From: Methyloversatilis discipulorum
GTDB taxonomy: Bacteria > Pseudomonadota > Gammaproteobacteria > Burkholderiales > Rhodocyclaceae
Reading direction: 5' to 3'
Assembly (NCBI RefSeq): GCF_018780585.1
Contig: NZ_JADMJL010000006.1
Location: forward strand, 62,001 to 126,000
DNA length: 64,000 nt
In this document: positions 8,552 through 37,289 of the stretch, piece by piece
Layout: each line of letters opens with the position of its first letter
Position numbering within the stretch: the first letter of the stretch is position 1
The notes under the pieces: generated by a model
The model's database searches: none
What the model saw: only the letters and a program-made list of their open reading frames with translations
What the model was told of the DNA's origin: nothing
Translations under genes and position numbers: made by a program

Positions 8552-8615
8552 GCACGACCACGCCGCGGTCGATGCTGCGCGCTGAGCGCTCCAGAACGGG
8601 ATGAAGAAGCAGTGG

Positions 8616-8640: not shown

Positions 8641-8659
8641 GTTACGGGCGTCCGGCCGG

Positions 8660-11261: not shown

Positions 11262-11290
11262 GATCGACCTCGTTCTTGAGTGAGAAGGGG

Positions 11291-11317
11291 TTGACGACGA
11301 TCAAGAAAGTTTCTTTA
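11291..11317 (-). promoter_or_regulatory. Candidate sigma-28 (FliA) promoter for the chemoreceptor
   Basis: Read on the minus strand: TAAAGAAA, exactly 11 bases, GTCGTCAA. The consensus is TAAAGTTT-N11-GCCGATAA, so five of eight bases match in each box and the spacing is ideal. It stands 29 bases upstream of the chemoreceptor ATG, as expected for a class-III flagellar/chemotaxis gene. Confidence 0.5.
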
Positions 11318-11400
11318 GGGGAAAAATTTGTGAACGCAATGCACCATTTCCTGCCGGGCTGGAAGGTCGGCGCCAGACCGGCTATCTTCTTCGCCCCGTA

Positions 11401-11997
11401 ATGACCGATGCTTTCCGCCCCGTGGATATCCTGACCCCTCGTCTGTTGCTGCGACCGATGAGCGCCGACTTCCTGCAGGCGTCTGCAGAGGGTTGCGGTG
11501 TGCGGGATCTGTCCGGGCTGATCGGTCTGACGGTCGCCGAGGACTGGCTCGCCGAAGCCGATCTGGCCGCACTGCGCCTGGCCGACCTGAGGTCTGACCC
11601 GGAATACGCGCCGTGGTCGGTGCGCGCCATCGCCTTGCGCGACAGCGGTGAAATGATCGGTCACGCTGGTTTCCATACGCGGCCGGCGCCGGAATACCTG
11701 CTGCCCTACGCGCCGGACGGCGTCGAGACCGGCTACACCATCTATCCGCCGCACCGCCGCCGCGGCCTCGGGCGCGAGGCGCTGATCGCGCTGCTGCGCT
11801 GGGCACATCTCGATCAGGGCGTGCCGCGTTTCATCGCCTCGGTGCGGCCGGACAATCTCGCCTCGTGCTCCTTGCTGGCCAGTACCGGCTTCCGTCGCAT
11901 CGCCTCCTTCATCGACGAGGTCGACGGGCTGGAGTACGTGATGCGGCTCGACCCGCCGGCGTTGCGCCGCCTGCTGAAGGCCGTGGACGACCTTTAG
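11401..11997 (+). CDS. GNAT-family N-acetyltransferase
   Basis: A 198-residue acetyl-CoA-dependent acetyltransferase of the RimJ/RimL-like subgroup. It opens with the usual LTPRLLLRPMS strand. The acetyl-CoA pyrophosphate loop is visible as PPHRRRGLGREALIALL, an (R/Q)xxGxG/A-type motif, and the late strand reads IASVRPDNLASCSLLASTGF. The substrate is unknown. A TATCTT box about 18 bases upstream of the ATG, with no Shine-Dalgarno, suggests a very short leader. The 3' end overlaps the convergent propeller gene by 4 bases. Confidence 0.87.
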   Translation: MTDAFRPVDILTPRLLLRPMSADFLQASAEGCGVRDLSGLIGLTVAEDWLAEADLAALRLADLRSDPEYAPWSVRAIALRDSGEMIGHAGFHTRPAPEYLLPYAPDGVETGYTIYPPHRRRGLGREALIALLRWAHLDQGVPRFIASVRPDNLASCSLLASTGFRRIASFIDEVDGLEYVMRLDPPALRRLLKAVDDL

Positions 11998-13739: not shown

Positions 13740-13790
13740 GGTGTCCGGCGGTGACGGAAAGCGACGATGCTAGCGCAGTCGCCCCTGCAG

Positions 13791-13819
13791 TCGTTACGTT
13801 CGGCGTGGCCGAGTAAAAT
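13791..13819 (+). promoter_or_regulatory. Candidate dnaE promoter with start codon at the expected +1
   Basis: TAAAAT at 13814-13819 is a good -10 box; TCGTTA at 13791-13796, spaced 17 bases, is a weak -35. The dnaE ATG starts only 7 bases after the -10, so transcripts from here would be leaderless or nearly so. Confidence 0.4.
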
Positions 13820-13825
13820 CGCCGG

Positions 13826-22242: not shown

Positions 22243-22539
22243 TCGGTTGTCTCCGTCAGGTTCTTGGGCTGACGAGGAATCCCGGTGCGTGCGCACGCGG
22301 TACTGCGATTCCCCGGCGACGCTTGGCCGTGACGGGTGGTCCGGCGGGGCGCAGGCGCGGAAGGTTGTTCGCGCGCACTGTGCGTCAGGCTGATTCGGCT
22401 GGAGGGTGTTCCGCTCGCGGTACAGACGGGCTGTCCGCGACTGCCGGCTCTACCGGCAGCAAGGACCACATCCTACACTGTCGGCTGCCCGGAGGAGACG
22501 GGTCAGAACGCACAGAGAACAACAGAGAGGAGCATCCGC

Positions 22540-23361
22540 ATGGCCAGTAATCTGGGTATCGATCTGTACTCGCCGAAGGAGATCGCGGAAAAGGTCGAGA
22601 ACATCGGCGTCGTCAAGGCCAATCTGCCGCTGCGCACGATGGCCATGCTGGGCATCCTGGCCGGCGCCTTCATCAGCTTCGGCGCGCTCTATTTCACGCT
22701 GGTCGCCAGCGATGCGTCGCTCGGCTTCGCGCTGACCCGGGTGCTCGGCGGGCTGGCTTTCTCGCTCGGGCTGATACTGGTGGCGGTGGCGGGTGCCGAA
22801 CTGTTCACCGGCAACAACTTCCTGGTGATGGCCTGGGCCGAGGGGCGCATTCCGTTCAGCCTGCTGGCGCGCAACTGGGCCATCGTCTATGTGACGAACG
22901 CGGTCGGTGCGCTGGGCATGGTGGCGCTGGTGATGCTGTCGCACCATACCGACATGAATGGCGGCGCGGTGGCCGAAGCCTATGTGAAGGTGGCGGCTGG
23001 CAAGACCGCCAGTTCCTTCACCACCGTGTTCATGAAGGGCGTCCTGTGCAATGCGCTGGTCTGCCTCGCCGTGTGGCTGGCCACCGCGGGGCGCAGCGTG
23101 ACCGACAAGGTGCTGGCCATCATCTTTCCGGTGTCGGCCTTCGTCGCCGCCGGTTTCGAGCACTGCATCGCCAATATGTATTTCATTCCGATGGGCATGC
23201 TGCTGCATGCCGGTGGCGTTGTACCCGCGGGCGTCGACCTGTCGGGCCTGACCCTCGTCGGCATGCTGTCCAATCTGCTGGCCGCCACGCTGGGCAATAT
23301 CGTCGGCGGCAGCATCCTGGTGGCCGGCGTCTACTACGTCACCTTCCGGCAGCGCGGCTGA
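22540..23361 (+). CDS. Formate/nitrite transporter (FNT) family channel
   Basis: A 273-residue pentameric anion channel with six predicted helices. FNT hallmarks include AMLGILAGAFISFGALYFTLV for the first helix and loop, GAELFTGNNFLVMAW (the L(E/F)TGN block), NAVGALGMVAL, and the paired motif GVLCNALVCLAVW. The late AGFEHCIANMYFIPMG contains the conserved pore histidine and asparagine. It could carry formate, nitrite, acetate or hydrosulfide; the sequence alone does not decide. The ATG at 22540 follows GAGAGGAGC. The pairing with the convergent ackA operon makes a short carboxylate plausible. Confidence 0.93.
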   Translation: MASNLGIDLYSPKEIAEKVENIGVVKANLPLRTMAMLGILAGAFISFGALYFTLVASDASLGFALTRVLGGLAFSLGLILVAVAGAELFTGNNFLVMAWAEGRIPFSLLARNWAIVYVTNAVGALGMVALVMLSHHTDMNGGAVAEAYVKVAAGKTASSFTTVFMKGVLCNALVCLAVWLATAGRSVTDKVLAIIFPVSAFVAAGFEHCIANMYFIPMGMLLHAGGVVPAGVDLSGLTLVGMLSNLLAATLGNIVGGSILVAGVYYVTFRQRG

Positions 23362-23390
23362 GCGCCCCCAGACCTGCCGCTTCGCGTCAG

Positions 23391-23439
23391 GCCCCCCGAG
23401 GGGGGCAAGAAAACTCGGGAGCGGCCCAGCGTTTTCTTG
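23391..23439. terminator. Double hairpin between FNT channel and ackA
   Basis: GCCCCCC / GGGGGGC (23391-23406) is followed at once by CAAGAAAAC / GTTTTCTTG (23406-23439) around a 16-base loop. The second arm carries a T-run on + and an A-run that gives a T-run on -. This fits a bidirectional terminator. The sequence type is also common as a dispersed intergenic repeat in Burkholderiales-like genomes. Confidence 0.65.
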
Positions 23440-23441
23440 AG

Positions 23442-24626
23442 TCAGCGGGCCGCGATCAGGGCGGCGGCCGCCTGCGCGGCGACGCGGCCTTCGTCGGTCG
23501 GCACGACCCACACTTCGATGCCGCTGTCGTCGCTGTCGATGCGCTGTACCGCGTCGCCGGTGGCCGCGGCGTTGCGTCCACCGTCCACGCGCACGCCCAT
23601 CCACGCGAGCGCGGCGCACACGTCGGCCCGCAGGGTCGCGTCGTGTTCGCCGATGCCGCCGCTGAAGGCGATGAGGTCGAGACCACCGATGCACGCGGCC
23701 ATCGCGCCGGCCTCCCGCACGACGCGGTAGGTGAACAGCTCGACCGCCTCGCGCGCCGCGGCGCCGGCGTCGGCGCGCAGCCGGCGCATGTCGGCCGAGA
23801 TGCCGGACACGCCGAGCAGGCCGCTCTGCCGGTACAGCAGTGTCTGCAGCCGGTCGTGGTCCCAGCCCTGTTCCATCAGATAGAGCAGTACGCCGGCATC
23901 GAGCGTGCCGCTGCGTGTGCCCATCATCAGGCCGTCCAGCGCCGAGAAGCCCATGGTGGTGGCCTGGCTGCGGCCATCGAGGGCGGCGCACAGACTGGCA
24001 CCGTTGCCGAGATGGGCCATCAGCACGCGGCCGTTGGCGCGCGGCGAATGCCGCTGCAGCGCACCCATGATGTACTGGTAGGACAGGCCGTGAAAGCCGT
24101 AGCGGCGCACGCCTTCGTCGTGCAGTGCGCGCGGCAGCGCGAAGCGGCTGGCCACTTCCGGCAGCCCGGCGTGGAAGGCGGTGTCGAAGCAGGCGATCTG
24201 CGGCAGCGCCGGGAAGGCCTCGCGGAAAGCGCGGATGCCGGCGACATTGTGCGGCTGGTGCAGCGGCGCCAGTGAATCGAGCCGGCTCAGGCGGGCGAGG
24301 ATGTCGTCGGTGACGATGACGCTGTCGCAGAAATCGCGACCGCCATGTACGACGCGATGCGACACCGCTTCGATGGCCGGCACGCCGGTTTCGCTGTCCA
24401 GCAGTTCGCGTAGCCCGGCCAGTGCGGCGGTGAAGGGCGCGTCGCTGGCTTCAAGCGAACGCCGGCCGCGGCGACCGTTCAGTGTCCAGCCCATGTCCGG
24501 CGTGCCGCCGGGTTCCAGCCCCTGGATGCTGCCGGTGAGCAGGCTGGCCTGCACCTCGCCGTCACGCAGCGGGTGGATGGAGAACTTCAGCGTGGACGAG
24601 CCCGCGTTGACGGACAGGATGGCCAT
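23442..24626 (-). CDS. ackA: Acetate/propionate kinase
   Basis: A 394-residue enzyme interconverting acyl phosphate + ADP with carboxylate + ATP. The signature motifs are all present: ILSVNAGSSTLKFSI, HRVVHGG, CFDTAFHAGLP (catalytic Asp), YGFHGLSYQYI, HLGNGAS, MGTRSG and AFSGGIGEH. The length matches the family. It follows the MaoC-Pta gene by 15 bases in a fabI-pta-ackA operon, so it probably takes the acyl phosphate made by that enzyme. Confidence 0.96.
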   Translation of the reverse strand: MAILSVNAGSSTLKFSIHPLRDGEVQASLLTGSIQGLEPGGTPDMGWTLNGRRGRRSLEASDAPFTAALAGLRELLDSETGVPAIEAVSHRVVHGGRDFCDSVIVTDDILARLSRLDSLAPLHQPHNVAGIRAFREAFPALPQIACFDTAFHAGLPEVASRFALPRALHDEGVRRYGFHGLSYQYIMGALQRHSPRANGRVLMAHLGNGASLCAALDGRSQATTMGFSALDGLMMGTRSGTLDAGVLLYLMEQGWDHDRLQTLLYRQSGLLGVSGISADMRRLRADAGAAAREAVELFTYRVVREAGAMAACIGGLDLIAFSGGIGEHDATLRADVCAALAWMGVRVDGGRNAAATGDAVQRIDSDDSGIEVWVVPTDEGRVAAQAAAALIAAR

Positions 24627-24641
24627 CGATGTGTATCCGGC

Positions 24642-26084
24642 TCAGTGCTGAGACCACGCTTCGCGCGGGTGGTCGCGGCGCGCGTTGTGGGCGGCGAGCA
24701 GTGCCAGCAGCGCCGAGGCGACGCGCGTCATCGGGCCGTCGGCGCGGCTGGTCAGCGCGATCGGCACACGGGCGCCGAGCACCAGGCCCGAACCGCTGGC
24801 GCCACCGAGGTATTCCAGTTGCTTGGCCAGCATGTTGCCGCTTTCCAGATCCGGCACCGCGAGAATGTCGGCGTCGCCGGCGACCGGCGACTGGATGTGC
24901 TTCACCTGTGCGGCGCGTGCGGAGATGGCGTTGTCGAAAGCCAGTGGACCGTCGAGCAGACCGCCGGTGATCTGGCCGCGATCCGCCATCTTGCACAGCG
25001 CGGCGGCATCGAGCGTCGACGGGATGTTCGGATTGACCGTCTCGACCGCCGACAGCACGGCGACCTTGGGCTGCTTCACGCCGAGGATGCGCGCGAAGTC
25101 GATCGCGTTCTGCACGATGTCGACCTTCTCGATCAGCGTCGGCCGGATGTTCAGCGCGGCGTCGGTGATCAGCAATGGCTTGCTGTACAGCGGCACATCG
25201 AAGCGGAACACGTGCGACATGCGACGCCCGGTGCGCAGCGCCGGACGGGACAGCACGGCATGAATCATCTCGTCGGTGTGCAGGCTGCCCTTCATCAGGA
25301 TGTCGACCTCGCCGGCGGCCGCCATGTCGGCGGCCTTGTCGGCGGCCGCGTGGCTGTGGGGTACGCCGACGATTTCGGCGGCATTCAGGTCGATGCCTGC
25401 TTCGGCTGCGAGATGGCGGATGCGAGCTTCCGGCCCGATCAGCACCGGAATGATCAGGCCGTGGCGAGCCGAATCCATCGCGCCGCTCAGCGACTCGACG
25501 TCGCACGGGTGCACCACGCCGCAGCGTACCGGCGGAATGCCGTCGCCCAGCGCCAGCAGTTCGCGGAAGCGCGCTTCCGGATCGAACAGCCGGATCTGCG
25601 GCGCGCGTACGTGCTCCAGCCGCACCTTCTGCGTTGGCGCCAGCACGCGGGCGGTGCCATGCAGCACACGGTCGCCTTTCTGGTTCACCACCTGGCAATC
25701 CAGTTCGACCCACTTCTTCGCGTCGTTCTTGCTGATGACGGTGGCCGTCACCGCCAGCGTGTCGCCGATGCGCACCGGCTTGGTGAAATGCAGCACCTGT
25801 TCCAGGTAGATGGTGCCCGGCCCCGGGAATTGCGTGCCGAGCAGTGCCGAGATCAGCGCGCCGCCCCACATGCCGTGCGCGATTACGCCGTGGAACAGCG
25901 TTTCCTCGGCGTATGCCGGGTTCATGTGGGCCGGGTTAGTGTCGCCGGACACCGCGGCGAAAGCCTGGATGTCGGCCAGCGTCAGCGTGCGCAGCAGGCG
26001 GGCGCTCTGGCCTATCGTCAGTTCGTCGTAGGTGATGTTCTCGATCCACTCGGTGCCGTGCATGTCGTGCGGTGAGGTGTCCAT
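24642..26084 (-). CDS. Bifunctional MaoC-like hydratase / phosphate acyltransferase
   Basis: A 480-residue fusion. Residues 15-150 form a MaoC/hot-dog (R)-hydratase domain with AAVSGDTNPAHMNPAYAEET and FHGVIAHGMWG, the usual Asp/His catalytic pair. Residues about 170-470 form a phosphate acetyl/butyryltransferase domain, with ILMKGSLHTDEMI, RRMSHVF, DAALNIRP and QITGGLLDGPLAFDNAIS. The domain order is a known proteobacterial architecture. With AckA it would convert acyl-CoA to acyl phosphate and ATP; the hydratase domain would act on 2-enoyl-CoA. It lies 24 bases after fabI and 15 bases before ackA. Confidence 0.93.
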   Translation of the reverse strand: MDTSPHDMHGTEWIENITYDELTIGQSARLLRTLTLADIQAFAAVSGDTNPAHMNPAYAEETLFHGVIAHGMWGGALISALLGTQFPGPGTIYLEQVLHFTKPVRIGDTLAVTATVISKNDAKKWVELDCQVVNQKGDRVLHGTARVLAPTQKVRLEHVRAPQIRLFDPEARFRELLALGDGIPPVRCGVVHPCDVESLSGAMDSARHGLIIPVLIGPEARIRHLAAEAGIDLNAAEIVGVPHSHAAADKAADMAAAGEVDILMKGSLHTDEMIHAVLSRPALRTGRRMSHVFRFDVPLYSKPLLITDAALNIRPTLIEKVDIVQNAIDFARILGVKQPKVAVLSAVETVNPNIPSTLDAAALCKMADRGQITGGLLDGPLAFDNAISARAAQVKHIQSPVAGDADILAVPDLESGNMLAKQLEYLGGASGSGLVLGARVPIALTSRADGPMTRVASALLALLAAHNARRDHPREAWSQH

Positions 26085-26108
26085 GCGGGAGTCCTGTCTG
26101 GTGGCGGT

Positions 26109-26882
26109 TCAGTCGACGGCGTGATAGCCGGCGTCGACGTAGAGGGTCTGCCCGGTCATGCCGGAGGCGGCGTCCGAGCACAAGAAGGCGGTCAGCCCGG
26201 CGATCTCGTCCAGCGTGACCAGGCGGCCCAGCGGCGACTTGCGAACAGCGCTGTCCATCAGTGCGTCGAAGGACGCGATGCCGGAGGCTGCGCGCGTCAG
26301 GATCGGGCCGGGCGACACCGCATGCACGCGGATGCCGGCGGGGCCGAGTTCCATCGCCATGTAACGCACCATCGATTCCAGTGCGGCCTTGACCGGTCCC
26401 ATCAGGCCGTAGTTCGGCACCGCCTCGTCGGCGCCGAGATAGGACATCGTGACCAGGCTGCCGCCGGCGCCCATGTGCGGTGCACACAGACGAGCCAGTG
26501 CGGCGAAGCTGTGGCAGGAAATGTCCATCGCCCGGGCGAAGCCGGCGCTCGAGCTGTCGATCACGCGGCCGTGCAGGTCTTCCAGCGGCGCCCAGGCGAT
26601 CGAGTGGATGACGAAATCGAGCCGGCCCAGATGGGCGACCGCGGCGGCGACCAGTGCCTCCAGGTCGCCGTCCTTCTCCACGTCGCAGGTGAACAGCGGC
26701 GAGGCGAGTTGATCGGCCAGCGGCGCAACGTAGCGCGCCGCCTTGTCGTTGAGGCAGGACAGCACCAGATCGGCGCCCTGGGCGCGAGCGGTCTGCGCGC
26801 AGCCCCAGGCGATGCTGCGATCGTTGGCAAGACCGACGACGAGGCCTTTCTTGCCGGACAGCGGAGGGGTGTAAGCGGTCAT
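26109..26882 (-). CDS. fabI: Enoyl-ACP reductase (FabI type)
   Basis: A 257-residue short-chain dehydrogenase of the FabI branch, reducing trans-2-enoyl-ACP with NAD(P)H. It starts LSGKKGLVVGLANDRSIAWG, the typical FabI cofactor motif, and has the Tyr-x6-Lys catalytic pair in NYGLMGPVKAALE, then VHAVSPGPI. It leads the operon with MaoC-Pta and AckA, an unusual place for an essential fatty-acid gene. It may serve an acyl-CoA side pathway, or be a second copy; that cannot be judged here. Confidence 0.9.
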   Translation of the reverse strand: MTAYTPPLSGKKGLVVGLANDRSIAWGCAQTARAQGADLVLSCLNDKAARYVAPLADQLASPLFTCDVEKDGDLEALVAAAVAHLGRLDFVIHSIAWAPLEDLHGRVIDSSSAGFARAMDISCHSFAALARLCAPHMGAGGSLVTMSYLGADEAVPNYGLMGPVKAALESMVRYMAMELGPAGIRVHAVSPGPILTRAASGIASFDALMDSAVRKSPLGRLVTLDEIAGLTAFLCSDAASGMTGQTLYVDAGYHAVD

Positions 26883-27325: not shown

Positions 27326-27580
27326 ATGGACAGTAACAGCCAAGGCTACTGGAAAGCCACGCTGGGACTGCTGACCAGGATCCTGATCATCTGGTTCGCA
27401 GTCTCGTTCGGCGCAGGCATCCTGTTTGCCGATGCGCTCAACGGCATCAAGCTCGGCGGCTATCCGCTCGGCTTCTGGTTTGCCCAACAGGGTTCGATCT
27501 ACATCTTCATCGCGCTGATCTTCTACTACGCGAAGAAGATGGGTGACATCGACCGCCAGTTCGACGTTCACGAGGATTGA
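27326..27580 (+). CDS. Small subunit of sodium:solute symporter (DUF4212)
   Basis: An 84-residue membrane protein with two transmembrane helices (about 14-36 and 50-70). It has the family tail YYAKKMGDIDRQFDV and the motif YPLGFWFAQQGSIYIF. DUF4212 proteins occur as partners of VC_2705-type symporters. The start at 27326 follows a run of GGAGGAGGAG; an upstream in-frame ATG at 27296 precedes this ribosome site and is unlikely. The symporter gene starts 4 bases after its stop. Confidence 0.92.
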   Translation: MDSNSQGYWKATLGLLTRILIIWFAVSFGAGILFADALNGIKLGGYPLGFWFAQQGSIYIFIALIFYYAKKMGDIDRQFDVHED

Positions 27581-27584
27581 TCAC

Positions 27585-29390
27585 ATGGACCTTCAAACAA
27601 CCATCTACATCGTTGTCGGTCTGAGCTTCGCGCTCTACATCGGCATCGCCATCTGGGCGCGTGCCGGTTCGACCAGCGAGTTCTATGCCGCCGGCGGCAG
27701 CGTGCATCCGATCACCAACGGCATGGCAACCGCCGCCGACTGGATGTCGGCTGCGTCCTTCATCTCGATGGCCGGCCTGATTTCCAACATGGGTTACGGC
27801 GGCGGCCTGTTCCTGATGGGCTGGACCGGCGGATACGTGCTGCTGGCCATGCTGCTGGCACCGTACCTGCGCAAGTTCGGCAAGTTCACCGTGCCGCAGT
27901 TCATCGGCGACCGCTTCTACTCGAAGTCGGCGTCGACCGTGGCGGTGATCTGCCTGCTGACCGCGTCGACCACCTACATCATCGGTCAGATGACCGGCGT
28001 CGGTGTGGCGTTCTCGCGCTTCCTGAACGTGTCCAGCGACACCGGCATCTACGTTGGCCAGGCCATCGTGTTCCTGTATGCGGTGTTCGGCGGCATGAAG
28101 GGCATCACCTACACCCAGGTGGCGCAGTACATCGTGCTCATCCTGGCCTACACCATCCCGGCCATCTTCATTTCGCTGCAGTTCACCGGCAACCCGCTCC
28201 CGCAACTGGGTCTGGGCAGCACGCTGAGCGGCACCGACGTGTCGCTGCTGGCCAAGCTCGACCAGGTCGTGACCGAACTGGGCTTCGGCAAGTACACGAC
28301 GACCACGGCGGGCTCGACGCTCAACATGTTCGTCTACACGCTGTCGCTGATGATCGGTACCGCCGGTCTGCCGCACGTGATCATGCGCTTCTTCACCGTT
28401 CCGACGGTCAAGGACGCACGTTCGTCGGCTGGCTGGGCGCTGGTGTTCATCGCCATCCTCTACACGACCGCTCCGGCCGTGGCCGCGATGGCCAAGATGA
28501 ACCTGCACGGCACGGTCAACACCGCGGTGAAGACCAACGGCGACCTGTACGCCGTCGAGTCCAGCATCAAGAACGAAGACCGTCCGGACTGGATGAAGCG
28601 CTGGGAAAAGACCGGTCTTCTGAAGTGGGAAGACAAGAACGGCGACGGCCGCATCCAGTACTACGACGACAAGACCAAGAGCGACGAAGCCAAGGCCAAG
28701 GCCGAAGCCGCGGGCTGGAAGGGCAACGAGCTGACGGTGAACGCCGACATCATCGTGCTGGCCAACCCGGAAATCGCGCTGCTGCCGAACTGGGTAATCG
28801 CGCTGGTGGCTGCCGGTGGTCTGGCTGCCGCACTGTCGACCGCTGCCGGTCTGCTGATGGCGATTTCGTCCGCCGTGTCGCATGACCTGGTCAAGGGCGT
28901 GTTCAACCCGAACATCAGCGAGAAGGGCGAGCTGCTGGCGGGCAAGATCGCCATGGCGGTGGCCATCGTGATTTCGGGCTATCTCGGCCTGAACCCGCCG
29001 GGCTTCGCGGCAGGTACCGTGGCGCTGGCCTTCGGTATCGCGGCATCGTCGCTGTTCCCGGCCATCATGATGGGCATCTTCTCGAAGAAGATGAACAAGG
29101 AAGGCGCCATCGCCGGCATGCTGGCGGGTCTCGCGGTCACGCTGTTCTACGTGTTCGCGCACAAGGGCATCTTCTTCATCAAGGGCACGGACTTCGTCGA
29201 CATGATCGGTGGCGCGAACTCCTTCTTCGGCATCACGCCGGAAGCCTTCGGTGCGGTCGGTGCGCTGGTGAACTTCATCGTCGCCTTCCTGGTCGATAAG
29301 GTGACCAAGGAGCCGCCGGAGCACATCCAGCACATGGTCGAATCCGTGCGCATCCCGCGCGGTTCGAAGGTGGTGGACGGCGCTCACTGA
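27585..29390 (+). CDS. Sodium:solute symporter, VC_2705-like, ActP-related
   Basis: A 601-residue SSS-family importer with about 13 membrane helices. Recognisable blocks are FYAAGGSVHPITNGMATAAD, ASTTYIIGQMTGVGVAFSRF, YAVFGGMKGITYTQVAQY, GTAGLPHVIMRFFTVP and AALSTAAGLLMAISSAVSHD. A hydrophilic insertion of about 85 residues (318-400) holds a canonical 12-residue EF-hand loop starting at Asp350 (DKNGDGRIQYYD). Substrate is probably a short monocarboxylate such as acetate, by similarity to ActP. It is co-transcribed with the DUF4212 subunit, and a strong terminator follows. Confidence 0.93.
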   Translation: MDLQTTIYIVVGLSFALYIGIAIWARAGSTSEFYAAGGSVHPITNGMATAADWMSAASFISMAGLISNMGYGGGLFLMGWTGGYVLLAMLLAPYLRKFGKFTVPQFIGDRFYSKSASTVAVICLLTASTTYIIGQMTGVGVAFSRFLNVSSDTGIYVGQAIVFLYAVFGGMKGITYTQVAQYIVLILAYTIPAIFISLQFTGNPLPQLGLGSTLSGTDVSLLAKLDQVVTELGFGKYTTTTAGSTLNMFVYTLSLMIGTAGLPHVIMRFFTVPTVKDARSSAGWALVFIAILYTTAPAVAAMAKMNLHGTVNTAVKTNGDLYAVESSIKNEDRPDWMKRWEKTGLLKWEDKNGDGRIQYYDDKTKSDEAKAKAEAAGWKGNELTVNADIIVLANPEIALLPNWVIALVAAGGLAAALSTAAGLLMAISSAVSHDLVKGVFNPNISEKGELLAGKIAMAVAIVISGYLGLNPPGFAAGTVALAFGIAASSLFPAIMMGIFSKKMNKEGAIAGMLAGLAVTLFYVFAHKGIFFIKGTDFVDMIGGANSFFGITPEAFGAVGALVNFIVAFLVDKVTKEPPEHIQHMVESVRIPRGSKVVDGAH

Positions 29391-29451
29391 GTTCCGGCCG
29401 AAGCCGAGCAGGACACCGTCGCGGCCCTGCCGCGCCGGTGGTTTAATGAGA

Positions 29452-29483
29452 GGCCCTGCCAGCCGTTCTGGCGGGGCCTTTTC
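29452..29483 (+). terminator. Rho-independent terminator after the symporter
   Basis: GGCCCTGCCAG (29452-29462) pairs with CTGGCGGGGCC (29468-29478) over 11 bp with one G-T pair. The loop is CCGTT, and TTTT follows. Confidence 0.88.
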
Positions 29484-29538
29484 ACTGATACACCCGTCGT
29501 GCCGTTGCGCGCGGCAGAGGCGGGGGAGGAGACACAGC

Positions 29539-29892
29539 ATGGTGTTCGACATCGGCGTCGCAATGACGTGGATACTTTTTCTCGCGCTGTTCCCGATCGC
29601 TTTCTTCTGGCTGCGCCGCTGCTGGCGCATCCTGGTCAAGCGGGATTTTTCAGAGGTCGCGCTCAAGCGCGGCGAACCGCCGCCCGACGCAGCCCGCTGG
29701 GCGCCGTATGAGCTGACGATCAACGGCATCGGCGGCATCGTCATCCTGTTCGTCATCGGCGGCGTTGTCACCGGCACGCTGAGTTATGAACAGTGGAGCG
29801 CCATCGCCGGCACGACGATCTGGTGCAAGTTCTTCACCAGTTTCGCGCTGGGCCGGCACGCCCATATGAACGCGACCAAGAAGGCCGCCTGA
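29539..29892 (+). CDS. Small membrane protein, unknown
   Basis: A 117-residue protein with two predicted helices (about 7-28 and 57-80) and basic flanks (WLRRCWRILVKRDF). The C-terminus is His/Lys-containing and cytoplasmic in appearance. I do not recognise a family of known function. The ATG at 29539 follows GGGAGGAGAC. It stands between the symporter terminator and the next small membrane gene, whose start is 11 bases downstream, so it begins the sensor-side transcription unit. Confidence 0.75.
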   Translation: MVFDIGVAMTWILFLALFPIAFFWLRRCWRILVKRDFSEVALKRGEPPPDAARWAPYELTINGIGGIVILFVIGGVVTGTLSYEQWSAIAGTTIWCKFFTSFALGRHAHMNATKKAA

Positions 29893-29903
29893 GCCGCACG
29901 GCG

Positions 29904-30101
29904 ATGAACACGCCGATCCGCTCGCAGCGGCTGATCGGGCTGTTCGCCGCGGCCCTGCTGCTGTTCAACTTCCCGCTGCTGGCACTGTGGGACCGGCACG
30001 CGCTGCTGTTCGGTCTGCCCTTGTTCCCGACCGCGCTGTTCCTGGTGTGGGGCGCGCTGATCGCGCTGCTCGCGCTGGTGATCGAGCGCACGGAGCGCTA
30101 G
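29904..30101 (+). CDS. Two-helix small membrane protein (DUF3311-like)
   Basis: A 65-residue protein with two hydrophobic helices (RLIGLFAAALLLFNFPLLAL and LFLVWGALIALLALVIE). This is the arrangement of small proteins encoded directly before SSS-family transporters, here before the symporter-kinase fusion. It may be its accessory subunit, mirroring the DUF4212/symporter pair. Its stop is 2 bases before the GTG of the next gene. The family assignment is tentative. Confidence 0.72.
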   Translation: MNTPIRSQRLIGLFAAALLLFNFPLLALWDRHALLFGLPLFPTALFLVWGALIALLALVIERTER

Positions 30102-30103
30102 CT

Positions 30104-32902
30104 GTGCTGTCCGCGCCGCTGCTGGTCGGTGCGTCCTTCGCCTACCTGCTGCTGCTGTTCGCGGTCGCCTGGTACGGCGACCATCGCGCGCAACAGGGGC
30201 GCTCGGTCATCGACAACGCCTGGGTGTATGCCGCCTCGATGGCGGTCTACTGCACCGCGTGGACCTATTTCGGCAGCGTCGGCCGCGCGTCGACCTCAGG
30301 CGTGTGGTTCCTGCCCATCTATCTCGGCCCCACGCTGGCGATGATTCTGGCCTGGATGGTGGTGCGCAAGATGATCCGCATCGCGCGCAGCTACCGCATC
30401 ACGTCGATCGCCGACTTCGTTGCCAGTCGCTACGGCAAGAGCCCGACGCTGGCCGGACTGGTGACACTGATCACCGTGGTCGGCATCGTTCCGTATATCG
30501 CGCTGCAGCTGAAGGCCATCGCAAGCGGCTACGCGGTGATGACCACGGTGCCGGGCGAGGCGGTCGGCAGCCCGTCCGACTGGTGGCGCGACAGCACGCT
30601 CTACGTCGCGCTCGCGCTGGCCGGTTTCACCATGGTGTTCGGTACCCGCCACCTCGACACCACCGAACGTCACGAGGGCATGGTGGCGGCCATCGCCTTC
30701 GAATCGGTGGTGAAGCTGATCGCCTTCATCGCCGTCGGCAGCTTCGTGTGCTGGTCGCTGTTCGACGGCCCGGCCGACCTGTTCGGGCGCGCACTCGACA
30801 ACCCGGACCTCGCGCCGCTGCTCGGTCTGGAGCAGCAGGGCCGCCCCTTCGCCTACGAACAGTGGTTCGCGCTGACCGTGCTGTCGATGCTGTCGGTCGT
30901 GTTCCTGCCGCGCCAGTTCCAGGTGATGGTGGTCGAGAACGTGAACGAGCGCCACCTGCGCCGCGCCGTGTGGGTGTTTCCGCTCTACCTGCTGCTGATC
31001 AATGTGTTCGTGCTGCCGATCGCGCTCGGCGGCCTGCTGCACTTCGGCGCTGGCAACATGAATGCGGAAAGCTTCGTGCTGTCGCTGCCACTCGACCGCG
31101 GCTGGCACGCGCTGGCACTGTTCGCCTTCATCGGCGGGCTGTCGGCGGCGACCGGCATGGTCATCGTCGAAACCATCGCGGTGTCGACCATGGTGTGCAA
31201 CGACCTGGTGATGCCGCTGCTGCTGCGTACCCGCCGCTTCGGCGCCCGCGCCGCCGGTGACCTCACCGGCATCCTGCTCGGCATCCGGCGCGCAGCCATC
31301 GTCGGCGTCATGCTGCTCGGCTACATCTACTTCCACGTCGCCGGCGAGGCCTACGCACTGGTGAGCATCGGCCTGATCAGCTTCGCCGCGGTGGCGCAGT
31401 TCGCGCCGGCCGCGCTCGGCGGCATGTACTGGAAGGGCGGCACCCGCGGTGGCGCGCTCGCCGGGCTCAGCGCCGGTTTCGCGCTGTGGGCATGGACGCT
31501 GATGCTGCCGTCCATCGCCAAGTCCGGCTGGATGGATGCCGCCTTCATCGCGCACGGTCCGTGGGGCATCGAGTTGCTGAAGCCGGAACAGCTGTTCGGC
31601 CTGGCCGGCCTCGACAACCTGACGCATTCGCTGTTCTGGAGCCTGCTCGCCAATATTGGCGCCTATGTCGGCGTGTCGCTGTGGCGCACGCCGTCGGCGG
31701 CGGAAACCAGCCAGGCGCTGCTGTTCGTCGATGTGTTCGAACGGACCGAAGGCAGCCGGCCGGTGTTTTGGCGCGGGCGTGCGCAGGTGGCCGACCTGTT
31801 GCCGCTGGTCGCGCGCTTTCTGGGTGCGGCGCGCGCGCAGAAGCTGTTCGAGGACTACGCCGCCGCCAGCGGTGTAGCCGGCGTGGACGAGATCAAGCCG
31901 GATGCACGTCTGGTGCAGTTCGTCGAAACCCAGCTTGCTGGCGCCATCGGCAGCGCGTCGGCACGCGTGATGGTGGCGTCGGTGGTGGAGGAGGAGGCGC
32001 TGGACCTCGACGACGTGATGCGCATCCTCGACGAAGCGTCGCAGCTGCGCGCCTATTCGCACGCGCTGGAGGAGAAGTCGCAGTCGCTGGAGCGCGCCAC
32101 CGCCGAACTGCGCGCCGCCAACGAGCAGCTGAAGAGCCTGGACCGGTTGAAGGACGATTTCATGTCCTCGGTCACGCACGAACTGCGCACGCCGCTCACC
32201 TCGATCCGCGCGCTGTCCGAGCTGATGGTGGACGACCCGCAGATGGACAGTGCGCAGCGCCAGCACTTCCTCGGCATCGTCGTGGCCGAGACCGAGCGCC
32301 TGAGCCGCCTGGTGAACCAGGTGCTGGACATGGCCAAGATCGAATCCGGCCACGCCGAATGGCACACCGCCGATGTCGATCTGCGGGCGCTGGTGTTGAA
32401 GGCGATCGAAACGACGCACGAGGTGTTCCGCGAGCGCGGTGCCGACGTGACGCTGGACGCACCGTCCGCCGTGGCGACGCTGCGCGCCGACCCCGATCGG
32501 CTCACCCAGGTGCTGCTGAACCTGCTGTCCAACGCCGCCAAGTTCGTACCGCGCGGCAGCGGACGCATCCATGTGCGCATGCGCAGCGACGACAGCGGTA
32601 TCACGGTCGAAGTGCGCGACAACGGCCCCGGCGTGCCGGTGGCCGAGCACGCGCTGGTGTTCGAGAAATTCCGCCAGGGCGGCGACGGGGTGAACCGGCC
32701 GCAGGGCACCGGACTCGGCCTGCCGATCAGCCGACAGATCGTCGAGCATTTCGGCGGCAGAATGTGGCTGGAATCTGATGCAGGCCAAGGCGCCTGCTTC
32801 GCCTTCCATCTACCGTGGCAGATACAAGAGGGCCGTCAGGCACCCGACAATCCGACCGCAAACCCCGTGCAGGGCGGACAGCAAGGAGGAGCTCCCCAGT
32901 GA
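30104..32902 (+). CDS. Sodium:solute symporter-histidine kinase fusion (CbrA-like, with STAC region)
   Basis: A 932-residue sensor. Residues 1 to about 500 form an SSS transporter-like domain of about 13 helices (YCTAWTYFGSVGRAS, YRITSIADFVASRYGKSP, FLPRQFQVMVVENVNERHLR). A STAC-like linker (about 540-630) and a coiled coil lead to the HisKA domain, with His692 in VTHELRTPLTSIRAL. The ATPase domain has LNLLSNAAKF, VRDNGPGVP and GTGLGLPI. It should sense or bind a transported solute and phosphorylate the adjacent receiver. Translation starts at GTG 30104; upstream frame extension overlaps the preceding gene. Confidence 0.93.
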   Translation: MLSAPLLVGASFAYLLLLFAVAWYGDHRAQQGRSVIDNAWVYAASMAVYCTAWTYFGSVGRASTSGVWFLPIYLGPTLAMILAWMVVRKMIRIARSYRITSIADFVASRYGKSPTLAGLVTLITVVGIVPYIALQLKAIASGYAVMTTVPGEAVGSPSDWWRDSTLYVALALAGFTMVFGTRHLDTTERHEGMVAAIAFESVVKLIAFIAVGSFVCWSLFDGPADLFGRALDNPDLAPLLGLEQQGRPFAYEQWFALTVLSMLSVVFLPRQFQVMVVENVNERHLRRAVWVFPLYLLLINVFVLPIALGGLLHFGAGNMNAESFVLSLPLDRGWHALALFAFIGGLSAATGMVIVETIAVSTMVCNDLVMPLLLRTRRFGARAAGDLTGILLGIRRAAIVGVMLLGYIYFHVAGEAYALVSIGLISFAAVAQFAPAALGGMYWKGGTRGGALAGLSAGFALWAWTLMLPSIAKSGWMDAAFIAHGPWGIELLKPEQLFGLAGLDNLTHSLFWSLLANIGAYVGVSLWRTPSAAETSQALLFVDVFERTEGSRPVFWRGRAQVADLLPLVARFLGAARAQKLFEDYAAASGVAGVDEIKPDARLVQFVETQLAGAIGSASARVMVASVVEEEALDLDDVMRILDEASQLRAYSHALEEKSQSLERATAELRAANEQLKSLDRLKDDFMSSVTHELRTPLTSIRALSELMVDDPQMDSAQRQHFLGIVVAETERLSRLVNQVLDMAKIESGHAEWHTADVDLRALVLKAIETTHEVFRERGADVTLDAPSAVATLRADPDRLTQVLLNLLSNAAKFVPRGSGRIHVRMRSDDSGITVEVRDNGPGVPVAEHALVFEKFRQGGDGVNRPQGTGLGLPISRQIVEHFGGRMWLESDAGQGACFAFHLPWQIQEGRQAPDNPTANPVQGGQQGGAPQ

Positions 32903-33264
32903 GCAGCAAGATACTGATTGCCGACGACGAGCCGAACATCCTCGTCTCTCTCGAATTCCTGATGAAGCGCGAAGGCTTCGACGTCAGCGTGGCGCGCGAC
33001 GGCGTCGAAGCGCTGGCTGCCATCCGCGAACAGCAGCCCGAACTGGTGCTGCTCGACGTGATGATGCCCGGCAAGAGCGGCTTCGAGGTGTGTCAGGAAG
33101 TGCGTGCCGACGACGCGCTGCGCGGCGTGCGCATCCTGATGCTGACGGCCAAGGGGCGCGACACCGACGTCGCCAAGGGTCTCGCGCTCGGCGCCGACGC
33201 CTACATGACCAAACCCTTCTCCACGCGGGAACTGGTGCAGAAGGTGCGCGAGATGCTCGGATGA
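32899..33264 (+). CDS. Single-domain response regulator (receiver only)
   Basis: A 121-residue CheY-like receiver with no output domain. The acidic pair is in ILIADDEPN, the phospho-acceptor Asp in LLDVMMPGKSG, Thr in MLTAKG and Lys in YMTKPFST. The GTG start overlaps the kinase stop (GTGA) and follows AAGGAGGA, so it is coupled to the kinase. It also runs directly into the exonuclease fusion gene. With no DNA-binding domain, it must act by protein contact. Confidence 0.93.
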   Translation: MSSKILIADDEPNILVSLEFLMKREGFDVSVARDGVEALAAIREQQPELVLLDVMMPGKSGFEVCQEVRADDALRGVRILMLTAKGRDTDVAKGLALGADAYMTKPFSTRELVQKVREMLG

Positions 33265-35438
33265 ATCCAAACCGCCGCCCCGATCGCCGCTTCTGGCAAG
33301 TGCTGGCGGCACTGTCTGGTCTGCTGCTGCTGTGGGCGGTGGTGACCTGTCTGCTGCTGCTGTCCACGCTGGACGCCAGCGAACGCGACACTGTGCTGTC
33401 GCTGCTCGGCGGGCGCATGCCGCTGGCGCTGATGACGCTGCTGTTCGTGCTGATGCTGGCCGCCGCCGGGCTGAACCAGCTGTACCGCCGCTACATCGTC
33501 GCGCCGGCGCGGCTGGTGGACGAGGCGCGCATCGTGCTCGGCACCGATGCCGAGCGCGCACTGACGCCGCAGGGCGACGTCGAGAACCGCGCGCTGGCCG
33601 ACGTCATCGCCGGCTTTGTAGAACAGCGCGCGCGGCTGCGCGCCGACATCGCCGAACAGGTGCGCGCCGCTAGCCGCAACGTCGAACAGGAACGCAGCCG
33701 GCTCGCCGCGCTGATGTCGGAACTGACGCAGTCGGTCGTCGTGTGCAATCTGGACGGTCGCATCCTGCTCTACAACAACCGCGCGCGGCTGCAGTTCCGT
33801 GCGCTGTCCGACGCCCCGCGTCTGGCCGACGGCGCCGAACTGATCGGCCTCGGCCGCTCGATCTACACCGTGTTCGACCGCAAGCTGGTCGCCCACGCGC
33901 TGGAGAACATCGGCCAGCGCATGCAGCGCGGCGTCGCCAGCCCGTCGGCGCAGTTCGTCACCACCACGCGCGCCGGCCAGCTGCTGCGCGCGCAGATGAC
34001 GCCGGTGCGCAGCGGCGACGACGGCGACAGTGCGATCAGCGGCTTCGTGCTGATGCTGGACAACATCACGCGCGACTTCGAGGAGGATTCGGAGCGCGAT
34101 CGCCTGCTGCTCGGGCTGACCGAAGGCAGCCGCGCCTCGCTCGCCAACATGCAGGCGGCGATCGACATGCTGGACTACCCCGACCTCGAACCGGCGATGC
34201 GCGAGCGCTTCCACGGCGTCATCCGCGACGAGGTGGGCGCGATGAGCCGGCGCATCCGCGATCTGGCCGACGAAGCGACGCGCGGCCTGAAGGCGCGCTG
34301 GCCGCTGGAGGACATGCTGGGTGCCGATCTGCTGTCGGCGGCCACGCGCCGCATCGAGGCGGTGAAGGGCCCGCGCGTGCAGCCGGACGACATCGACGCC
34401 ACGCTGTGGCTCAAGGTCGACAGCTTTTCGCTGCTGCAGGCGCTGGCCTATCTGGCCGAGCGGCTGGCCGACGAGTACGACATCCGCGTCGTCATGCTCA
34501 GACTGGTCGCCGCGCCGCAGGACAACCGCGCCCACCTCGACCTGATCTGGCAGGGTCAGACCATGAGCACCGAAACCGTCATGAGCTGGCAGATGGACGC
34601 GATGACGGCCGGCGGCGAGCGCTCGCCGCTGTCGGTGCGCGACGTGGTCGAACGGCACGGCGGCGAGTTCTGGCTGGAGCGCGAGCGGGTGCGCCACCGC
34701 GCCTTCTTCCGCTTCCTGCTGCCGCTGGCCAGCGAGCGCGAACAGCTCGACGTCGCGACCTTCGTGCCGCAGGGCAGCCGCCCCGAGTACTACGACTTCG
34801 ACCTGTTCCGCGCCACCGAATCCAGCCGCGAACTGGCCGACCGGCCGCTGACCGAACTGGCCTACACCGTGTTCGACACCGAAACCACCGGCCTGAACCC
34901 GGGCGAGGGCGACGAAATCATCCAGATCGGCGCCGCCCGCGTGGTCAACGGCAAGCTGCTGCGGCAGGAAAGTTTCGAACAGCTGGTCGATCCGCAGCGC
35001 GGCATTCCGGCGGCATCGATCCCCATCCACGGCATCACGCCCGACATGGTGGCCGGCCAGCCGACGATAGACCGCGTGCTGCCTGCCTTCCACACCTTCG
35101 CCCAGGACACCGTGCTGGTTGCGCACAACGCCGCCTTCGACATGCGTTTCCTGCAGCTGAAGGAGGCGCGCACCGGCGTGCGCTTCGAGCAGCCGGTGCT
35201 CGACACGCTGCTGCTGTCGGCGCTGGTGCACCCGAACCAGGCGTCGCACCGGCTGGAGGCCATCGCCGAACGCTTCAACATCACCGTGATCGGCCGCCAC
35301 ACCGCGCTCGGTGACGCCATCGTCACCGCCGAGGTCTTCCTGAAGCTGATACCGCTGCTCGCCGAGAAGGGCATCCACACGCTGGGGCAGGCGATGGAGG
35401 CGGCGCAGGAAACGTATTACGCGCGGATCAAGTACTGA
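33261..35438 (+). CDS. Membrane PAS / degenerate kinase fused to a DEDDh 3'-5' exonuclease
   Basis: A 725-residue fusion. Two membrane helices lie at about 11-35 and 53-74, a PAS-like domain at about 145-270, and a kinase-like region at about 275-490. In the helix that should carry the H-box, the phospho-accepting position is Glu288 (TEGSRASL against HELRTPL). The ATPase lobe lacks clear N and G boxes, so it is probably a pseudokinase. Residues about 530-705 are a DnaQ-like exonuclease with intact DEDDh residues Asp539, Glu541, Asp627, His680 and Asp685. ATG 33261 overlaps the receiver stop. It converges on the DUF294 gene. Confidence 0.9.
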   Translation: MNPNRRPDRRFWQVLAALSGLLLLWAVVTCLLLLSTLDASERDTVLSLLGGRMPLALMTLLFVLMLAAAGLNQLYRRYIVAPARLVDEARIVLGTDAERALTPQGDVENRALADVIAGFVEQRARLRADIAEQVRAASRNVEQERSRLAALMSELTQSVVVCNLDGRILLYNNRARLQFRALSDAPRLADGAELIGLGRSIYTVFDRKLVAHALENIGQRMQRGVASPSAQFVTTTRAGQLLRAQMTPVRSGDDGDSAISGFVLMLDNITRDFEEDSERDRLLLGLTEGSRASLANMQAAIDMLDYPDLEPAMRERFHGVIRDEVGAMSRRIRDLADEATRGLKARWPLEDMLGADLLSAATRRIEAVKGPRVQPDDIDATLWLKVDSFSLLQALAYLAERLADEYDIRVVMLRLVAAPQDNRAHLDLIWQGQTMSTETVMSWQMDAMTAGGERSPLSVRDVVERHGGEFWLERERVRHRAFFRFLLPLASEREQLDVATFVPQGSRPEYYDFDLFRATESSRELADRPLTELAYTVFDTETTGLNPGEGDEIIQIGAARVVNGKLLRQESFEQLVDPQRGIPAASIPIHGITPDMVAGQPTIDRVLPAFHTFAQDTVLVAHNAAFDMRFLQLKEARTGVRFEQPVLDTLLLSALVHPNQASHRLEAIAERFNITVIGRHTALGDAIVTAEVFLKLIPLLAEKGIHTLGQAMEAAQETYYARIKY

Positions 35439-35442
35439 GCGT

Positions 35443-35469
35443 GGCGGGGCGCGTCAGAACCGCCCCGCC
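35443..35469. terminator. Hairpin between convergent exonuclease and DUF294 genes
   Basis: GGCGGGGC (35443-35450) and GCCCCGCC (35462-35469) pair over 8 bp; the stop codon of the DUF294 gene lies in the loop. There is no T-tract. Confidence 0.45.
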
Positions 35470-37289
35470 TGATAGCGCTGCCCCAGCACGTTCTGCAGCG
35501 ACTGCACGACGCTGAAGGCGTCCTTCAGCTGGCTGCGTTCGAAGTTCGACAGTTCGTCCGGGCGCAGGAAGTTGTCAGCGTTCAGGCCGGCGGCGAGTTG
35601 GCGGGCCTGGTGCTGGATGCGCAGCGTGGCGATGAATTCCAGCGCGTCGCGCAGGTCGCGTGCGGCCTGTTCGCTGATCTCGCCGCTGGCGGCGGCGACG
35701 GCCAGCCGGTCGTGCGTGTTGACCGCGTCGTGGCCGCCGGCCAGTGCATAGACGCGCGCCAGGTCGACCACCGGCACGATGCCGTTGTGCTTGAGGTCCA
35801 GCGTGCCCTTGTTGTCGCCGCTGCGTATCGTCGACAGGCTTCGGAACAGGCCCAGTGGCGGCGTGTGGCTCAGTGCATTGCCCACCATGTATGCGAGGAA
35901 GATGCGGTTGTCGCGCGTGTGTGCGAGCACGTCGCGGCGCAGTTCGTCGAGCAGCGCGGTCTTGCCGTAGATGGCGCGCAGGTCGAAGAACACGCAGGTG
36001 AGCATGAGCGCCTTCGGCTCCGGCTGGTCCACCCATTTGCGGAAGTACTGCATCCAGCGCGCCTTGGGCTGCCGCCACTGGTCGGTCATCGCCATCATTT
36101 CGCCCGGGCAGTGGATGTAGCCGCAGGCGTCCAGGCCGTCGCACACCCAGGTGGCGAAGGCCTTGAAATAGTCGCCGTGCATGGCAGCGTCGTAGCTGTC
36201 GTCGATCACGAGACAGTTGTCCTGGTCCGACTTGGCCGTCTGTTCGCTGCGCGCCTGTGAGCCGGCGGCCACCCACACGTAGTCCACCGGCGCCGGGCCG
36301 AACTTCGCTTCGGCCAGCTGCACCAGCCGGCAGGTGATGGCGTCGGTCACCGCGGTGATGATGTGGCCGGTGCTGTAGGCAGTGGCGCCGGCAGCGGCCA
36401 GATTCTGCTGCAGCTGGCGCACGCGCGAGGCGGCGGCAGCCAGGCCCTCGACCGTGGTCTGCTTGTAGATGTCGCCGGCCAGGTAGACGGCAGAAGTGCT
36501 GTGCTGTTCGGTCAGGTCGGTGGCGGTGATCATGCCGGCCACGCGATCGCCGTCCATCACCGGCACGTGGTGGATGTTGTGGCGCGCCATCAGCAGCAGT
36601 GCGTCGAAGGCGGGCTTGCGCACGTCCATCGTCATCGGTGCGACGGTGGCGATGTCGATCACCGGACGGTCGATGTCCAGCCCCTGGGCGACGGCGCGGT
36701 TGCGCAGGTCGCGGTCGGTCACCAGGCCGTACAGATGGCCGGCTTGGTCGACGATGAGCACCGAGGACACGCGTTGTTCGCGCATCAGCTGCGCCGCCGC
36801 GCGTATGGCGGTGTCCGGCGCCAGCGTGATCGGTGCGCGCTTGACCAGTGCCCGCACCGGCGTGGTCATCAGATTCAGGTGTGGATCGCTGCTGCGCGAG
36901 GTGGTGCCGGGGCTGCCACCCGGCACGATGAAGGCGCGCAGCGCCGGATGGGCGGCGCAGGCGGCGTCGATGTCGGCAGCGGCAAAGCGGGCGACCGTGG
37001 CACCGCGGTCGGCGCGCACCGTCCACGGTTCCGGTACGCGGGCGGCGGTGCCGTAACCGAACAGTTCGCCCGGCGCGAGCGCGACGCGGCCGCCGTGGTC
37101 GGCGTCGATCAGGTCGATGTGGCCGTCGAGCAGCAGGTAGAGCGCGTCGGCATCGACCGCCGCCTCGCCGTCGAAGGCGACGACACGGGCGGCGGCGGCC
37201 AGCGCCTCGCGGGCGCCGTCATCCAGCAAGGCAAGGGCGCGCTGCGTCGACAGCGCGGTGCGCAGGCGAGCGTCGGGGGAATCGGTCAT
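35454..37289 (-). CDS. cNMP-like / CBS-pair / DUF294 nucleotidyltransferase
   Basis: A 611-residue cytoplasmic protein. Residues 15-125 resemble a cyclic-nucleotide-binding fold, though the phosphate-binding motif looks degenerate. Two CBS domains follow at about 141-265 (SSVLIVDQAGHLYGLVTDRD, HHVPVMDGDRVAGMITATDL). The DUF294 nucleotidyltransferase core (about 285-430) keeps GSQARSEQ (343-350) and the acidic SDQDN (354-358). A DUF294 C-terminal helical domain completes it (about 455-600). The GlnD-like catalytic pattern suggests nucleotidyl transfer controlled by adenine-nucleotide binding. Association with exonuclease and SSS genes is seen in other proteobacteria. Confidence 0.9.
   Translation of the reverse strand: MTDSPDARLRTALSTQRALALLDDGAREALAAAARVVAFDGEAAVDADALYLLLDGHIDLIDADHGGRVALAPGELFGYGTAARVPEPWTVRADRGATVARFAAADIDAACAAHPALRAFIVPGGSPGTTSRSSDPHLNLMTTPVRALVKRAPITLAPDTAIRAAAQLMREQRVSSVLIVDQAGHLYGLVTDRDLRNRAVAQGLDIDRPVIDIATVAPMTMDVRKPAFDALLLMARHNIHHVPVMDGDRVAGMITATDLTEQHSTSAVYLAGDIYKQTTVEGLAAAASRVRQLQQNLAAAGATAYSTGHIITAVTDAITCRLVQLAEAKFGPAPVDYVWVAAGSQARSEQTAKSDQDNCLVIDDSYDAAMHGDYFKAFATWVCDGLDACGYIHCPGEMMAMTDQWRQPKARWMQYFRKWVDQPEPKALMLTCVFFDLRAIYGKTALLDELRRDVLAHTRDNRIFLAYMVGNALSHTPPLGLFRSLSTIRSGDNKGTLDLKHNGIVPVVDLARVYALAGGHDAVNTHDRLAVAAASGEISEQAARDLRDALEFIATLRIQHQARQLAAGLNADNFLRPDELSNFERSQLKDAFSVVQSLQNVLGQRYQAGRF

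Follow-up and report, generated by a model that had tools for sequence, protein, structure and literature searches.

A ten-kilobase block of eight genes in Methyloversatilis discipulorum appears to encode a two-component system that has a nuclease as its output. The block is located in the window, by which we mean the whole 64,000-nt stretch analyzed here (part of contig C80 of the 4.56 Mb genome), and includes genes for an SLC5 symporter–histidine kinase, a single-domain receiver and a membrane pseudokinase–exonuclease, hereafter called EXO. In the proposed mechanism, the symporter-like kinase would sense a small carboxylate or its transport and, judging by intact active sites and gene order, would phosphorylate the lone receiver. 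Just as DivK~P binds DivL, the phosphorylated receiver would dock on EXO, a membrane-anchored protein, at its dead kinase domain; docking would change the DHp/ATPase-like region (DHp, dimerization and histidine phosphotransfer) and so switch the attached DEDDh 3′–5′ exonuclease. The sodium/solute symporter and the CBS/DUF294 nucleotidyltransferase of the same block may serve the same physiological response. We assign this explanation as a whole, derived from sequence comparisons, a probability of roughly 55%. Within it, gene order and the pattern of change on the presumed docking face strongly suggest a link between the receiver and EXO.

Adjacency was counted over 167 distinct loci in which 450 nt or more of sequence precede EXO; records L156 and L197 are one locus, counted once here and present twice in the covariation, tree, independent-pair and EXO-less receiver comparison sets. 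In 150 of the 167, the receiver gene immediately precedes EXO and shares its strand. The kinase gene, traced over 151 records (one locus twice), was found before the receiver gene in 117, after EXO in 21 and was not seen in 13; because its position varies, the receiver–EXO pair is the tightest link. The receiver and EXO genes overlap by 4 nt in 47 of the 74 loci (out of 80 public loci) that gave both genes. In the window, the 4-nt overlaps read GTGA at the kinase/receiver junction and ATGA at the receiver/EXO junction, as stated in the initial annotation, which had seen the three genes as tied together by them. The annotation had also proposed the exonuclease fusion as the target of the lone receiver; both the adjacency and the change of the docking face where the receiver is absent (see below) support this proposal. 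The evidence speaks neither for nor against its working idea that solute sensing governs the trimming of RNA or of a nucleotide signal, with nucleotidyl transfer opposing it.

The kinase catalytic boxes (H692, N806/N810, D839-G841-G843 and G868/G870/G872) are invariant in 31 aligned kinases. Receiver residues D9, D10, D53 (the phosphorylation site) and K105 are invariant in 33 aligned receivers, with T83 kept in at least 90% of them. In EXO, alignment columns for the ATP-binding N-box Asn and the G1 motif DxGxG hold other residues, and the acceptor site is E288. In 80 close EXO proteins (window included) this site is Glu in 77 and Gln in three, and no His was found there in 172 distinct EXO proteins beyond the window. 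The receiver-linked EXO proteins have Glu at the acceptor position in 137 of 150 cases and Arg at position +3 in 149 of 150. The Gln variants belong to three related proteins (loci L045, L050 and L059); these loci hold a symporter gene, and the genomes have no receiver or kinase orthologue.

EXO consists of a PAS-like domain (residues 156–268), a pseudo-DHp (270–341), a degenerate ATPase domain (350–489) and a DEDDh exonuclease (534–702). Pfam detected RNase_T in all 36 aligned EXO members (window included) and PAS_4 in 15 of them, while HisKA or HATPase_c matches at E ≤ 0.01 were absent from all 36. An AlphaFold model built from 36 sequences (mean pLDDT 79, pTM 0.38) starts with two membrane helices at the N-terminus and also has the PAS-like domain, a DHp of two helices, an ATPase-like domain of kinase type and the nuclease. 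In Foldseek searches the middle part of EXO matched histidine kinases 9a5d (E 1e-17) and 4i5s (E 1e-14), with low TM-scores and large root-mean-square deviations over the multi-domain alignment; according to the model, this region has the fold of a DHp and a catalytic ATP-binding domain. Direct alignment of EXO with the neighbouring kinase (26% identity over 227 residues) places E288 opposite H692, and among 21 candidates scored in the same genome, EXO matched at E ≤ 0.001 itself, two exonucleases and the operon's kinase. By these comparisons the kinase-like domain of EXO is homologous to the operon's own kinase, a relationship that also speaks for an alternative: the dead kinase could pair with the symporter-kinase itself in a mixed DHp bundle of the RetS/GacS kind and tune the kinase or be tuned by it, with the receiver acting elsewhere. 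We consider such pairing unlikely; adjacency of the receiver and EXO genes persists where the kinase gene is on the other side (21/151), and further evidence is weighed below.

The C-terminal domain of EXO is a predicted DEDDh 3′–5′ exonuclease. Residues D539, E541, D627, H680 and D685 are kept in all 80 close EXO proteins, in 149–150 of the 150 receiver-linked ones and in 14 of 17 receiver-less ones. The closest Foldseek matches of this part are the PolC/epsilon exonucleases 2p1j and 2ido; EXO shares the nuclease fold of such PolC/DnaQ-type DEDDh enzymes but carries it behind a membrane pseudokinase. The similarity to proofreading domains fits a second alternative, that the genes are co-regulated neighbours only: EXO would be a constitutive or PAS-controlled nuclease for DNA or RNA upkeep during growth on carboxylates, and the receiver a phosphate sink or a servant of other regulators. 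This seems improbable given the 150/167 direct adjacency, the DHp-centred change where the receiver is absent and the conservation of a dead kinase for which a plain nuclease has no obvious need. In three same-genus genomes (loci L122, L123 and L125) we observed EXO-like membrane pseudokinases that have lost the C-terminal DEDDh residues; no RNase_T match was found by Pfam in the proteins of L122 and L123.

At 17 EXO loci there is no receiver gene next to EXO on the upstream side. Orthologous receiver and kinase genes are present elsewhere in five of these genomes (G068, G199, G311, G396 and G447); in the other 12 a whole-genome search found no receiver at E ≤ 1e-35. Residues A299-A300, located in DHp helix α1 at positions +11 and +12 from the acceptor, are kept in 140 of 150 receiver-linked EXO proteins and in 5 of 5 with the receiver elsewhere, and in none of the 12 from receiver-absent genomes (0/9 with intact nuclease, 0/3 with the nuclease also lost). 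The nine receiver-absent proteins with intact nuclease keep conserved positions at 0.99 in the PAS domain, 0.96 in the nuclease and 0.84 in the ATPase-like domain, versus 0.53 in DHp α1 and 0.39 in α2; in receiver-linked EXO proteins matched for overall conservation, α1 is kept at 0.78 to 1.0. The five most-changed of 117 conserved EXO positions are F317, E288, W471, A299 and A300; four of them are in the DHp, which holds only seven of the 117. The change in EXO proteins is thus centred on the DHp where receiver and kinase are absent. Loss of A299-A300 without the receiver, their retention when the receiver is elsewhere and conservation of the rest of EXO together fit a DivK–DivL-like mechanism.

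On the best tree, built without the DHp columns, the nine receiver-absent proteins with intact nuclease form six clades, two of them on weak branches. Of five independent pairs, the number in which change tracks receiver loss is on average 4.4 for A299-A300, 5.0 for F317, 3.8 for E288 and 3.3 for N/S296 (median sign-test p of 0.125, 0.0625, 0.125 and 0.25, respectively), and no A299-A300 or F317 difference runs opposite to the prediction. The presumed core residue at +6 stays in receiver-less loci (Leu in 15/17, Val in 2/17). It is the presumably receiver-facing positions 0, +11 and +12 that change, which speaks against the dead kinase being shaped by pairing with the symporter-kinase.

Several observations weigh against receiver docking on EXO. 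No kinase scoring like the orthologues was found in the 12 receiver-absent genomes (six have weaker matches of about 230 or 340–440 bits, versus 1290–1530 bits in the five receiver-elsewhere genomes). With both kinase and receiver absent, lost contact with the kinase could account for the DHp change, as the pairing alternative would have it. Residues W471 and D427 of the ATPase-like domain change too. Independent pairs on supported branches number only five, and with five pairs p cannot reach 0.05. Of the receiver-elsewhere genomes, G311 has its receiver gene on the opposite strand of the same cluster, and three others (G068, G199 and G396) contain a second copy of EXO, located beside the receiver gene in G068 and G199; this leaves G447 as the sole clean separation. 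EXO with intact nuclease persists in nine receiver-absent cases, in line with the view of EXO and receiver as mere co-regulated neighbours. Mutual information with average product correction, computed over 150 receiver–EXO pairs (effective number 64), gave no usable covariation signal; in the positive control, which compared the kinase DHp with the receiver in 128 pairs (effective number 39), the known interface was missed. Furthermore, the kinase is present in 21 of the 280 genomes of the order that lack EXO, mostly with a lone receiver and often beside another response regulator. Occurrence of kinase and receiver without EXO indicates that the receiver is not reserved for EXO in all genomes, and it is also an argument for the co-regulated-neighbours alternative. 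Examples observed are loci with symporter-kinase, lone receiver and no EXO that have an extra regulator nearby, either of OmpR type (L172, L180) or of LuxR type (L183, L186, L188).

These loci allow a comparison from the receiver side. Receivers of 17 loci with kinase but without long EXO retain, compared with the 150 EXO-linked ones, a mean of 0.84 over 47 conserved positions. The least-kept positions are D9 (Glu in 12 of 17), K85, N13, K93 and A96, followed by V54, V64, M81 and R87; many of the changed positions are around the active site and the β4–α4 region, and some are buried. Since these loci keep the kinase, the change hints at a constraint exerted by EXO, and its location on the active-site side, where EXO is missing but the kinase stays, is a further point against kinase pairing. 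General relaxation is another possible explanation. The buried positions V54, V64 and L51 also change, and the 17 receivers are related to one another in a comparison uncorrected for kinship, which both count against docking.

In EnvZ the phosphoacceptor is His243. With this acceptor, the EnvZ specificity residues T250, L254 and A255, as given in the accessible part of PMC2991266, occupy positions +7, +11 and +12. In DivL, which has Tyr550 at the acceptor site and binds DivK~P, substitutions of R553 (+3) and Y562 (+12) impair binding, and alphaproteobacteria without DivK often have no DivL DHp–CA region (accessible text of PMC4211667). The likeness is 2-fold: DivK–DivL also combines a single-domain receiver with a PAS-containing pseudokinase lacking the acceptor His, and loss of the DivL DHp–CA region without DivK follows the same logic as loss of the EXO docking face without the receiver. 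There are differences as well. The kinase CckA is the target of DivL, whose acceptor site holds Tyr, whereas EXO carries its own nuclease and mostly has Glu, and its docking is deduced here from sequence. EXO is not a DivL orthologue, having a fused nuclease and, in most members, Glu in place of a Tyr/Ala acceptor.

We surveyed overlapping genome sets with the non-nuclease part of EXO as the query (E ≤ 1e-10). At the level of the family, 92 of 131 searched genomes have EXO; the figures are 20/300 for the order, 20/369 for the class and 34/397 for the phylum. EXO reaches other classes of the phylum and is present in 15 of 18 genomes of one family outside the class. Judged by EXO, the closest relative with a name is a Methyloversatilis metagenome-assembled genome (84%). 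In the order, the kinase was detected at E ≤ 1e-100 in 17 of 20 EXO-positive versus 21 of 280 EXO-negative genomes; two of the latter kinases (G527 and G612), with only 670–680 bits and reading frames of ~1,160 residues, may be CrbS-like.

Linkage of the symporter and CBS/DUF294 genes with the EXO module is recurrent. EXO loci flanked by 7 kb or more on each side number 74; within 7 kb, a DUF294 gene was present in 47 of these and a symporter gene in 52. At least one of the two was found at 60 loci and neither at 14, and DUF294, symporter, kinase and receiver genes occurred together at 30. As a rough guide to chance, with no formal null, a genome of 4.56 Mb with two strong DUF294 matches, as here, would have one of them within 7 kb of a given gene in <1% of cases, compared with the observed 47 of 74. 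Single co-directional runs were seen in the order symporter, DUF294, receiver, EXO, small protein, kinase (L206) and in the order kinase, receiver, EXO, DUF294, DUF4212, symporter (L134). The initial annotation mentioned similar gene associations in other proteobacteria and named a lack of conserved linkage beyond this genome as grounds for dropping its idea; the neighbourhood survey refutes such a lack. The genome of the window has a second DUF294–DUF4212–symporter cluster (L274, contig C46, about 8472–16213); it has no EXO, and genes for a kinase and a response regulator come after it.

Short exonuclease–DUF294 pairs were found in 12 of the 21 kinase-positive, EXO-negative genomes of the order, with the DUF294 gene adjoining in each; in G649 (L188) the pair directly precedes the kinase–receiver genes. 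The short exonuclease has 237 aa in L188, with RNase_T as its only Pfam match, and in the 12 EXO-negative genomes such proteins have scores of 44–89 bits with the EXO profile. We considered whether the short form strictly replaces long EXO and rejected this, as 7 of 26 EXO-positive genomes also have matches to it (one of the seven falls in the nuclease of the long EXO itself). In G527 (L191), a DUF294–short exonuclease pair was observed near genes for a symporter-kinase with a frame of 1,159 residues, an ActP-like symporter and a second response regulator; the locus resembles one of CrbS/R type to which the exonuclease pair has been added.

In the accessible parts of the literature, SLC5 symporter-kinases tied to monocarboxylate uptake are known from CrbS/R (MxtR/ErdR) and RpuS/R (PMC5715377, PMC9927547, PMC9100948), and CrbS/R in Pseudomonas is also tied to exonuclease and CBS-protein genes, as here. 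In P. putida, pp_0353 (RNase_T) and pp_0354 (CBS), likewise an exonuclease gene together with a CBS-protein gene, form an operon under MxtR/ErdR; pp_0354 is an ErdR target, loss of pp_0353 slows or delays growth on pyruvate and not on acetate, the P. aeruginosa homologues are located beside actP/yjcH, and the authors speculate on mRNA decay (PMC9927547, accessible text). Kinship of pp_0353 with the short exonucleases is assumed here. The paper on the CrbS/R regulon (PMC5715377, accessible text) also discusses Pflu5625, a CBS/nucleotidyltransferase protein of P. fluorescens. These reports and the short exonuclease–DUF294 pairs bring up a third alternative, a CrbS/R-type transcriptional carboxylate switch whose regulon would include the exonuclease and the CBS protein like any other member. 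For the window we regard it as very improbable. The CrbS and RpuS kinases described in these sources are hybrids with a receiver tail that work with LuxR-type regulators, while the 932-aa kinase of the window has no C-terminal receiver domain by Pfam and its partner, the 121-aa receiver, has no DNA-binding domain; the genome of the window has no short-exonuclease match at E ≤ 1e-20. Pfam did not detect a STAC domain between symporter and kinase, and residues 535–650 had no meaningful PDB sequence match.

An operon of symporter-kinase, lone receiver and pseudokinase–exonuclease was not described among the literature matches listed, a search with most subscription papers outside it. The initial annotation knew of no described mechanism for the block. 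None was found, but pp_0353/pp_0354 are published targets of MxtR/ErdR (CrbS/R), with pp_0353 required for normal growth on pyruvate (accessible text of PMC9927547). In view of this work and the short exonuclease–DUF294 pairs, the association of exonuclease, DUF294 and symporter genes is partly in print; the lone receiver with the dead-kinase nuclease is the part found undescribed.

Open reading frames together with Pfam/NCBIfam matches show the block at 27326–37289 as first described, all eight genes with the families named at the outset (Table 1). The CBS/DUF294 gene is separated from the end of EXO by 15 nt; its product has a weak N-terminal cNMP-binding match below the Pfam cut-off and a G-S...D-x-D motif visible in the translation, which we take to be that of nucleotidyltransferases. 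A promoter scan found no promoter, a terminator scan gave 5 versus 4.9 in shuffled sequences and an Rfam search had no match. The 65-aa protein (29904–30101) beside the symporter-kinase is reminiscent of cbrX before cbrA (accessible text of PMC6591292). Just upstream of the block (22336–26882), a formate/nitrite-type channel, acetate kinase, a MaoC–phosphotransacetylase fusion and an enoyl-ACP reductase-like gene were named by eye from translations; they can be read as an acetate-activation set adjoining the carboxylate block.

Table 1. Features of the gene block, in window coordinates
Feature	Coordinates	Strand	Family matches and remarks
DUF4212 small subunit of sodium/solute symporter	27326..27580	+	TIGR03647, Pfam DUF4212
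VC_2705-family sodium/solute symporter	27585..29390	+	SSF, TIGR03648
Small membrane protein, 117 aa	29539..29892	+	After symporter in many relatives; no Pfam family above cut-off
Membrane protein, 65 aa	29904..30101	+	Accompanies symporter-kinase in both gene orders
SLC5 symporter–histidine kinase, 932 aa	30104..32902	+	HisKA+HATPase_c
Single-domain receiver, 121 aa	32899..33264	+	Response_reg
EXO, membrane pseudokinase–exonuclease, 725 residues	33261..35438	+	RNase_T; two N-terminal membrane helices
Presumed receiver-docking helix of EXO, T287-D302	34119..34166	+	DHp α1
CBS/DUF294 nucleotidyltransferase	35454..37289	-	CBS pair + DUF294 + DUF294_C; convergent with EXO

Residues E288, A299-A300 and F317 make the docking of the receiver on EXO directly testable. 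If the proposed mechanism is true, a nuclease would be added to the direct outputs of two-component systems, and the DivK–DivL trick, use of a dead kinase as a sensor of the receiver, would be seen in metabolism. It would also help to explain why exonuclease and CBS-nucleotidyltransferase genes recur by monocarboxylate transporters; in P. putida a pyruvate phenotype of this gene association is known while the mechanism is not. On a wider scale, with chances that we see as about even, these genes may represent a widespread and so far undescribed class of two-component systems, in which a nutrient-sensing symporter-kinase directly controls a membrane-tethered exonuclease through docking of the phosphorylated receiver on a fused dead kinase, so that nutrient flux would set nucleic-acid turnover without a transcription step.

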